This document shows, one piece after another, positions 8,690 to 9,312 of a stretch of 64,000 bases of DNA (the stretch's first letter is position 1; each line of letters begins with the position of its first letter). The DNA comes from Desulfovibrio sp. Fe33 (lineage in GTDB: Bacteria > Desulfobacterota > Desulfovibrionia > Desulfovibrionales > Desulfovibrionaceae): positions 186,001-250,000 of the forward strand of contig NZ_JAQKGU010000004.1 of the NCBI RefSeq assembly GCF_028532725.1, given 5' to 3'. A model generated the notes under the pieces. It did no database searches and was not told where the DNA came from. It saw only the letters and a program-made list of their open reading frames with translations. A program made the translations under genes and the position numbers.

Positions 8690-8727
8690 GGCGTTTCTCC
8701 TTGTTGCTTTCGGCTGCGGCGCGGCCC

Positions 8728-8762
8728 AAAAAAAGAGGCCGCGGACTATGCCCGCGGCCTCT
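8728..8762 (-). terminator. attenuator terminator in the ADH synthase leader
   Basis: On the minus strand AGAGGCCGCGG (8762-8752) and CCGCGGCCTCT (8744-8734) form a perfect 11-bp stem with a 7-base loop, followed by seven T. It lies after the leader peptide and 39 bases before the ADH synthase start, so it must be read through to express that gene. Confidence 0.9.
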
Positions 8763-8812
8763 TGGTTTAGATCCCTATTGAATAAAGACTAGCGCACACC
8801 AAGACCGCAGGC
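8750..8812 (-). promoter_or_regulatory. antiterminator arms competing with the attenuator terminator
   Basis: On the minus strand GCCTGCGGTCTTGGT (8812-8798) can pair with ACCAAGAGGCCGCGGGC (8766-8750): six pairs CTTGGT/ACCAAG plus GCC-GCGG against CCGCGGGC with a small bulge. The second arm contains the 5' side of the terminator stem, so the two structures are mutually exclusive. The first arm overlaps the last codons of the leader peptide, where a ribosome at the stop codon would cover it. Confidence 0.75.
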
Positions 8813-8863
8813 GTTCCTGATAAAGCTAAAAAAGAAAAAGAAACGGGCGGTGATGTTGTGCAT
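8789..8863 (-). CDS. phenylalanine-rich leader peptide (attenuation control)
   Basis: A 24-codon frame, ATG at 8863-8861 and TAG at 8791-8789, starts MHNITAR, then FFFFFSF (six Phe in seven codons, residues 8-14), and ends in IRNACGLGVR. Six Phe codons just before an antiterminator arm is the layout of pheL/pheM-type leaders. If charged tRNA-Phe is short, a ribosome stalled on the Phe run leaves the 8812-8798 arm free to block termination. With ample Phe the ribosome reaches the stop and the terminator forms. No clear Shine-Dalgarno is visible. A TTGACA at 8899-8894 with a poor -10 would put the RNA start almost on the ATG, so either the mRNA is nearly leaderless or transcription comes from ridA. 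Confidence 0.85.
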   Translation of the reverse strand: MHNITARFFFFFSFIRNACGLGVR

Positions 8864-8928
8864 GATTTTCAGGTATCCATTTTGCGAAGAGCCTGTCAAG
8901 TAGAGTTTTCGCAACGTGCCGGATCGCG

Positions 8929-9312
8929 TTAGTCGATGACGGCCACGCATTTGAATTCGACCAGGCCTCCCAGGGGCAGGCCCGCCACCTGGATGGCGGC
9001 GCGGGCGGGCTTGTGGCCGGTGAAAAATTCGGCGTAGATGGCGTTGAGGTCGGCGAAACGGCCCATGTCCATGATGAACACGTCCACGGCAAGGACCTTG
9101 TCCAGGGAGGAACCGGTCTCTTCCAGGATGGCCTTCAGGTTTTCCAGCGCCTGGCGGGTCTGGGCCTTGAACCCTTCGGCCAGTTTGCCTTCGGAAGGGA
9201 TGATGCCGAGCTGGCCGGACACGTGGATCATGCCGTTGACGGCGGTTGCCTGGGAGTAGGGGCCCACGGCGGCCGGGGCCTTATCCGTATGGATCAGTTG
9301 GATATCGGACAT
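8929..9312 (-). CDS. ridA: RidA-family enamine/imine deaminase
   Basis: 127 residues, the usual RidA length. GPYSQA (17-22), VSGQLG (31-36), and KPARAAIQVAGLP with the substrate-binding Arg104 are all present, as is the final VEFKCVAVID strand. It hydrolyses reactive 2-aminoacrylate and related imines formed by PLP enzymes, working as a cytoplasmic trimer. The ribosome site AAGGAG precedes the ATG. It follows the Gate-domain gene by 19 bases and precedes the Phe attenuator by 65 bases, so ridA transcription may feed the aromatic leader. Confidence 0.93.
   Translation of the reverse strand: MSDIQLIHTDKAPAAVGPYSQATAVNGMIHVSGQLGIIPSEGKLAEGFKAQTRQALENLKAILEETGSSLDKVLAVDVFIMDMGRFADLNAIYAEFFTGHKPARAAIQVAGLPLGGLVEFKCVAVID

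Follow-up and report, generated by a model that had tools for sequence, protein, structure and literature searches.

A probable leaderless phenylalanine attenuator before one of three ADH synthase paralogs in Desulfovibrio

Which signal controls transcription of an ADH synthase gene (2-amino-3,7-dideoxy-D-threo-hept-6-ulosonate synthase, ADHS) that is preceded by a short phenylalanine-rich reading frame and a terminator? The locus lies in a 64,000-nt stretch of Desulfovibrio sp. Fe33 DNA (assembly GCF_028532725.1, NZ_JAQKGU010000004.1, forward strand 186,001-250,000), which as a whole is called the window and in which coordinates count from 1. A sequence-only reading had placed a 24-codon Phe-rich leader, an antiterminator arm inside it and a terminator, in this order, before an archaeal-type ADH synthase. 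All these elements are present in that order on the minus strand (Table 1). The enzyme assignment is borne out by a score of 398.3 bits to TIGR01949 (cut-off 299.45) and by MJ0400 (2qjg) as the closest solved structure. The terminator has its hairpin and its seven T, although the stem counts 12 Watson-Crick pairs followed by a G-U and a C-G pair instead of the perfect 11 bp read before. The genome contains three ADHS genes, designated P1 (the gene in the window), P2 and P3. We conclude with high confidence from the comparative evidence below that the region before P1 acts as a ribosome-mediated transcription attenuator, sensing charged tRNA-Phe and controlling one of the three ADHS isozymes.

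Table 1. Elements of the P1 locus (window coordinates) and related genes elsewhere in the genome
Feature	Position	Strand	Basis or remark
-35 hexamer TTGACA	8894..8899	minus	starts 36 nt 5′ of leader ATG; read from sequence
-10-like hexamer GATACC, weak match, spacer 16 nt	8872..8877	minus	read from sequence
Leader peptide ORF MHNITARFFFFFSFIRNACGLGVR, 24 codons + TAG stop	8789..8863 (ATG at 8863)	minus	kept in 33/33 genus orthologs found
Phe codons 8-12, proposed stall site	8828..8842	minus	sequence + alignment
Further Phe codon, codon 14	8824-8822	minus	sequence
1:2 protector hairpin, nt 3-25 with nt 46-70, Phe run in loop	8794..8861	minus	fold
Arm 2 GCCTGCGGTCTTGGT, antiterminator 5′ strand, within leader ORF	8798..8812	minus	fold + alignment
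Arm 3 ACCAAGAGGCCGCGGGC, antiterminator 3′ strand, common to terminator	8750..8766	minus	fold + alignment
Intrinsic terminator: hairpin 8763-8733, then seven T to 8728	8728..8763	minus	fold + rule
Shine-Dalgarno AAGGAG of ADHS gene	8697..8702	minus	read from sequence
ADH synthase (ADHS), paralog P1, 263 aa	7898..8689	minus	TIGR01949
Rid-family deaminase (ridA), upstream neighbour, outside switch	8929..9312	minus	family search; conserved neighbour
Third ADHS paralog P3 (L094)	G000:C13:11183-11962		no leader
Symporter Phe leader MQTRHNRFGFFFFFSFRFFRSACGFEVCV + terminator	L185 1501-1671, within G000:C3:107751-109416	minus	P1 model
Sodium:solute symporter	L185 2-1342	minus	PF00474

Random 300-mers drawn from the window contain an ATG ORF of 10-45 codons that reaches five or more Phe in 12 residues in 0.18% of cases. 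When aromatic ORFs were defined as ATG ORFs with at least six Phe, Tyr or Trp in 12 residues, ADHS was alone in having one upstream among the 65 stretches before ATG ORFs of at least 200 aa in the window. The RNA corresponding to 8862-8729 (134 nt) folds at -54.9 kcal/mol (z -6.76), an energy as low as which was found in none of 200 shuffles.

Within this RNA, the 1:2 hairpin, the antiterminator and the terminator are three competing pairings. In the antiterminator, GCCUGCGG-UCUUGGU (nt 52-66, 8812-8798) pairs with ACCAAGA-gg-CCGCGGGC (nt 98-114, 8766-8750), confirming the arm named in the sequence-only reading, and the terminator 5′ arm (nt 101-114) lies within the same stretch as the antiterminator 3′ strand. 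The RNA left free behind a stalled ribosome folds as the antiterminator at -27.5 kcal/mol when the 3′ terminator arm is left out, and as the terminator when the RNA is complete (-27.7 kcal/mol versus -24.3 kcal/mol for the antiterminator). As the terminator is slightly the stabler structure, the decision between the two would be kinetic. In the proposed switch, which assumes the usual ribosome footprints on the leader, transcription would start at or adjoining the leader AUG. When Phe-tRNA is plentiful, a ribosome would pass the five Phe codons, reach the UAG (nt 73-75) and cover arm 2; arm 3 would then close the terminator, halting RNA polymerase before the ADHS gene. With scarce Phe-tRNA, the ribosome would stall with its A site on Phe codons 8-12 (nt 22-36) and mask arm 1. 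Arm 2, left free, would then pair with arm 3 ahead of synthesis of the 3′ terminator arm, and ADHS would be transcribed. The leader with its two competing hairpins very probably switches P1 on at low Phe in this way; ribosome stalling and the response to Phe are what we infer from these folds and codons.

To what extent the elements are conserved was determined in a set of 36 genomes of the genus, including that of Fe33. P1 orthologs were found in 33 of them, the remaining three genomes being 81-87% complete. A Phe leader precedes all 33, of which 32 are recognised by an automatic rule (at least five Phe in 12 residues); the last one (L024, MNTMTTRFFCAFIFRNACGHGVR) has four Phe and falls below the rule. 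Phe accounts for 128 of the 130 residues in four columns of the run, its codons varying synonymously between TTT and TTC, and the reading frame is kept. Across the P1 set, 94.9% of the terminator cells are paired and 17 cells show two-sided change, a number reached by none of 500 shuffles; the further pair types do not exceed the shuffles (492 of 500 reach the count). For the antiterminator, 89.1% is paired, five pairs show two-sided change (reached by 3 of 500 shuffles) and sliding the partners by 1-3 columns leaves at most 52.5% paired. The 1:2 hairpin is paired for 87.9%, with two-sided changes that are matched by 215 of 500 shuffles. The stem covariation that the sequence-only reading had proposed to look for is therefore present in the terminator and the antiterminator, but does not rise above shuffles in the 1:2 hairpin. 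That reading would have been contradicted by relatives without the Phe codons or without the stems; all 33 orthologs keep the leader, the terminator and the antiterminator, which supports ribosome-mediated attenuation. By the sequence criteria applied, and with the 1:2 hairpin set aside, the P1 region qualifies as a Phe attenuator.

The sequence preceding the leaders suggests how they are expressed. An exact TTGACA, which is found at 0.2% of random window places, stands before 31 of 33 P1 leaders, 33 of 34 P2 leaders and 18 of 22 leaders from other families of the order, and it begins 36-37 nt upstream of the leader start codon in 30/33 P1 and 30/34 P2 cases. The -10 boxes are poor, with 2-3 mismatches to TATAAT in 26 of the 33 P1 orthologs at the best of three spacings. 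From this position of TTGACA, transcription is predicted to begin at the ATG or no more than a few nt away from it. Before the leader, at least three mismatches to AGGAGG are counted in 30/33 P1 loci; before ADHS itself, AGGAGG is present with at most one mismatch in 33/33. Because TTGACA lies at a near-fixed distance and a Shine-Dalgarno sequence is lacking, the leader is probably translated leaderless, i.e., without a 5′ UTR.

The three paralogs differ in what precedes them. P2 (C8:46359) heads a cluster in which ADHS and DHQS-II were assigned by Pfam, and pheA, aroA, tyrA, trpE, trpG, trpD and trpC were recognised by eye from their translations. Its leader, MKTSIVTSAYFSNFYFWYWYSHARGLGRGAV, mixes Phe, Tyr and Trp, as do the leaders at all 34 P2 loci examined, which come from 34 of the 36 genus genomes. 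At none of the 12 P3 loci examined do the 300 nt upstream hold an aromatic leader. A family search of the Fe33 genome (PF00793, PF01474 and PF01761; assembly 99.99% complete by its own figure) found neither DAHP synthase nor AroB, the sole PF00793 match being rejected as KDO-8-P synthase, and PF01474 and PF01761 giving no match. With ADHS and DHQS-II present, the aromatic route in this genome is DAHP-independent, as had been claimed. The accompanying idea that the attenuator would tie the first committed step to Phe supply needs a qualification: P1 is one of three paralogs and lies outside the aromatic cluster, so that its switch would act on a single isozyme and not on the first step as a whole. 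A link to the Rid-family deaminase encoded next to P1 is conceivable, since DHQS-II catalyses an oxidative deamination. A Rid-family deaminase is also found near Phe-leader ADHS genes in five loci of other genera.

Other explanations of the P1 region have to be weighed against Phe attenuation. The leader may sense more than Phe and work as a general aromatic or translation-speed sensor, like that of the operon paralog P2. Such broader sensing would fit the 16 of 33 genus P1 leaders that hold one or two Tyr codons (one leader holds a Trp codon), as well as the mixture of Phe, Tyr and Trp in P2 and other-family leaders. It agrees poorly with the mean numbers of Phe, Tyr and Trp per leader, which are 6.8, 0.6 and 0.03 for P1 against 3.6, 3.4 and 1.6 for P2 (5.0, 3.2 and 1.1 in the other families of the order), and with the leader in the window, from which Tyr and Trp are absent. 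Response to a wider set of signals is consequently regarded as unlikely.

Still less credit is given to two further readings. If the hairpin were only the terminator of ridA, the Phe ORF would be incidental and ADHS would be expressed by read-through or from a hidden promoter. ridA indeed lies directly upstream on the same strand, ending at 8929, and accompanies the leader in 28 of 33 genus loci. The other five loci have the leader without ridA, however, the exact TTGACA stands just before the leader, the Phe ORF is conserved together with the antiterminator, and the same module is found before other genes, all of which makes this explanation highly improbable. The leader could alternatively encode a nascent peptide that arrests the ribosome, or be a metabolite-binding RNA, as might be suspected from the conserved C terminus of the peptide, NACGLGV. 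Its N terminus is variable, and codons 18-22 (ACGLG) are conserved because they are the antiterminator arm read as protein. In addition, no Rfam family reaches its cut-off on the leader region, the only match being suhB with 18.2 bits (cut-off 41). Arrest or metabolite binding therefore has very little probability, and the ridA-terminator, nascent-peptide and riboswitch readings were all rejected on this evidence.

Phe attenuation of P1 gains context from aromatic leaders outside the genus. For the other families of this order, the best ADHS of each of 24 genomes was taken; one genome is without a match and the other 23 (including G050) all have a leader; neither of two second ADHS copies in these families has an aromatic one. 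The 40 loci compared for other genera of the family are mainly best matches and represent 39 of 139 genomes outside the genus: a leader lies within 300 nt in 37 and within 480 nt in 39 of them. The phylum set consists of 30 loci, best matches only, seven being from the same family and three already counted. Leaders are present within 300 nt in 27 and, when longer ORFs are allowed, within 420 nt in 28; one of the two misses has only 34 nt of upstream sequence. By a single rule, a terminator follows the leader in 33/33 P1, 34/34 P2, 22/22 order, 39/39 other-genera and 28/28 phylum loci, compared to 9 of 150 random window 120-mers. The P2 and other-family terminators carry one stem mismatch; they are seen by folding and by the mismatch-tolerant rule, and missed by a perfect-stem finder.

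The antiterminator was tested in the genus (P1 and P2), order and symporter sets. With the 3′ arm of the terminator cut away, fragments form at least eight pairs between the end of the leader and the terminator 5′ arm in 33 of 33 P1, 33 of 34 P2 and 22 of 22 order loci. The pairing energy is reached by 1.2%, 5.3% and 3.3% of leader-end shuffles, respectively, and the pair number by 17%, 8% and 13%, so that the number of antiterminator pairs by itself is weak evidence. At P2 and order loci (L032, L037-L053), many terminators keep a purine-G mismatch while their 5′ arm still pairs with the antiterminator arm, as if the antiterminator constrained the 5′ arm more than the terminator does. Tandem ADHS pairs with a leader before the first gene were encountered in several genera (L119, L121, L131, L132, L137, L138 and L140). 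In one genome in which no ADHS match was found (G069), a gene resembling prephenate dehydratase by eye has an aromatic leader of its own (L238; C48, ~141245).

How a Phe leader came to stand beside mixed ones is suggested by a tree of 107 ADHS proteins, obtained by a quick search with midpoint root and with 10 of the 33 P1 rows left out. Phe-dominated leaders, a class judged by reading in which some leaders include a Tyr, fall on one group of 31 rows, which comprises 23 P1 proteins together with eight genes of four further genera and has an SH-aLRT of 88 (not starred). Elsewhere in the tree, the sister group included, the rows that were read carry a mixed leader or lack one, with one exception, the Phe-biased L133 in the sister group. 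Since Phe-dominated leaders thus occur mainly on one ADHS clade beside mixed ones, leader codons were probably retuned after duplication, the simplest account being one main change from mixed to Phe.

A covariance model built from the P1 leader and run on the Fe33 genome gave 166 bits for P1 itself, 86 bits (E 1.2e-18) for C3:109250-109416 and 34 bits for P2. From the 23 matches with E of at most 1, the eight strongest were examined: P1, the leader of a sodium:solute symporter (at C3), P2, L187 and L188-L191. L187 was rejected as a further leader, as it is the opposite strand of the P1 terminator, and so were L188-L191 (27-29 bits), which resemble ordinary gene-end terminators without an aromatic ORF. 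By this model, and among the eight matches examined, there is one other strong Phe attenuator candidate in the genome, the one before the symporter. There, TTGACT lies 36 nt upstream of the leader's start codon, and a 44-residue ORF and the symporter follow downstream; the symporter protein scores 180 bits to PutP, below the cut-off of 515.5. A Phe-rich leader was found at 28 of the 30 best symporter loci in the genus, and the other two (L265 and L271) end at contig ends before the leader. As to the remaining genomes of the 36, four have only distant symporter relatives and two have copies of 60-70% identity. All 28 symporter leaders can form an antiterminator, with energies reached by none of 840 shuffles. 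Phe-rich leaders likewise precede the symporter in further genera of this family. In one genome (G114, C13), a pair of symporter paralogs (L227 and L228) carries leaders that lie about 2.5 kb from each other, one Tyr-rich and one Phe-rich. From the codon content of its leader, the Fe33 symporter is predicted to import Phe.

Taken as a whole, the comparison tends to favour, with appreciable room for doubt, a phylum-wide and so far undescribed family of leaderless aromatic attenuators on ADHS. In this bacterial family, the leader of one isozyme would have been retuned to Phe after duplication, giving end-product-specific isozymes by codon content and not by repressors, and the Phe version would also serve a Phe-importing symporter. 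For the DAHP-independent aromatic pathway, which is known chiefly from archaea, a likely regulatory mechanism in bacteria emerges, and a route is suggested by which post-duplication retuning of leaders lets isozymes answer different end products. The codon content of leaders may moreover predict function: here it marks the symporter as a Phe importer, and elsewhere it distinguishes neighbouring Tyr-type and Phe-type copies.

Several known systems resemble parts of this arrangement. E. coli has the DAHP synthase isozymes AroF, AroG and AroH, which repressors and feedback inhibition link each to a different end product. The ADHS paralogs are likewise several first-step isozymes, of another enzyme, that differ in leader codon content. 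The trpL leader of Sinorhizobium is leaderless, its peptide being translated from a 5′ AUG. The P1 leader would share this 5′ AUG start, whereas trpL concerns Trp and alpha-proteobacteria. An attenuator of aroR-aroF in Corynebacterium glutamicum was reportedly presented by Neshat in 2014.

In the passages available, this C. glutamicum attenuator has an aromatic-codon leader before a DAHP synthase gene (PMC11802643) and, like P1, acts on the first enzyme of the aromatic pathway. It differs in the enzyme, in a leader with Phe-Tyr-Phe and in belonging to another phylum, and those passages mention no differently led paralogs. The uORFC-13-1 motif before aroF of Acholeplasma, predicted by comparison only according to the part available (PMC8632094), also combines a Phe uORF and a terminator before the first pathway enzyme; there, the enzyme is DAHP synthase, at least one Phe residue is present and the RBS lies within the consensus. 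The Phe attenuators of E. coli pheL-pheA and pheST, named in the same partial source as aroR-aroF (PMC11802643), share with P1 a leader of Phe codons and regulation by charged tRNA-Phe. P1 differs from them in its target (ADHS, or the symporter), in lacking a leader Shine-Dalgarno sequence and in having no Rfam match; the likeness is one of arrangement, with no sequence relation claimed.

Within Desulfovibrionales, the available part of PMC3766115 covers four Rfam attenuator motifs only (His, Leu, Thr and Trp) and suggests a possible gamma-proteobacterial origin of such attenuators, with which, as far as that part goes, the P1 case fits uneasily. In D. hydrothermalis, joint down-regulation above 10 MPa is described, in the part available, for a cluster in which DHQS, pheA, aroA and tyrA accompany an aldolase of this type (PMC4162548); neither attenuat- nor leader appears in the text of that paper. 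A search by term in the available parts of PMC545781, PMC5764234, PMC4162548 and PMC1262725 found no such attenuator, and none for ADH synthase or a Desulfovibrio aromatic gene was found among the papers listed by an open-access search, with subscription literature mostly outside it. The earlier statement that no Phe attenuator was known to have been described for this enzyme agrees with these searches, while aromatic attenuators of the analogous DAHP synthase gene are already published. As far as the literature was searched, P1 therefore belongs to a known class of mechanism, placed on a new target, ADHS, and in a new evolutionary setting.
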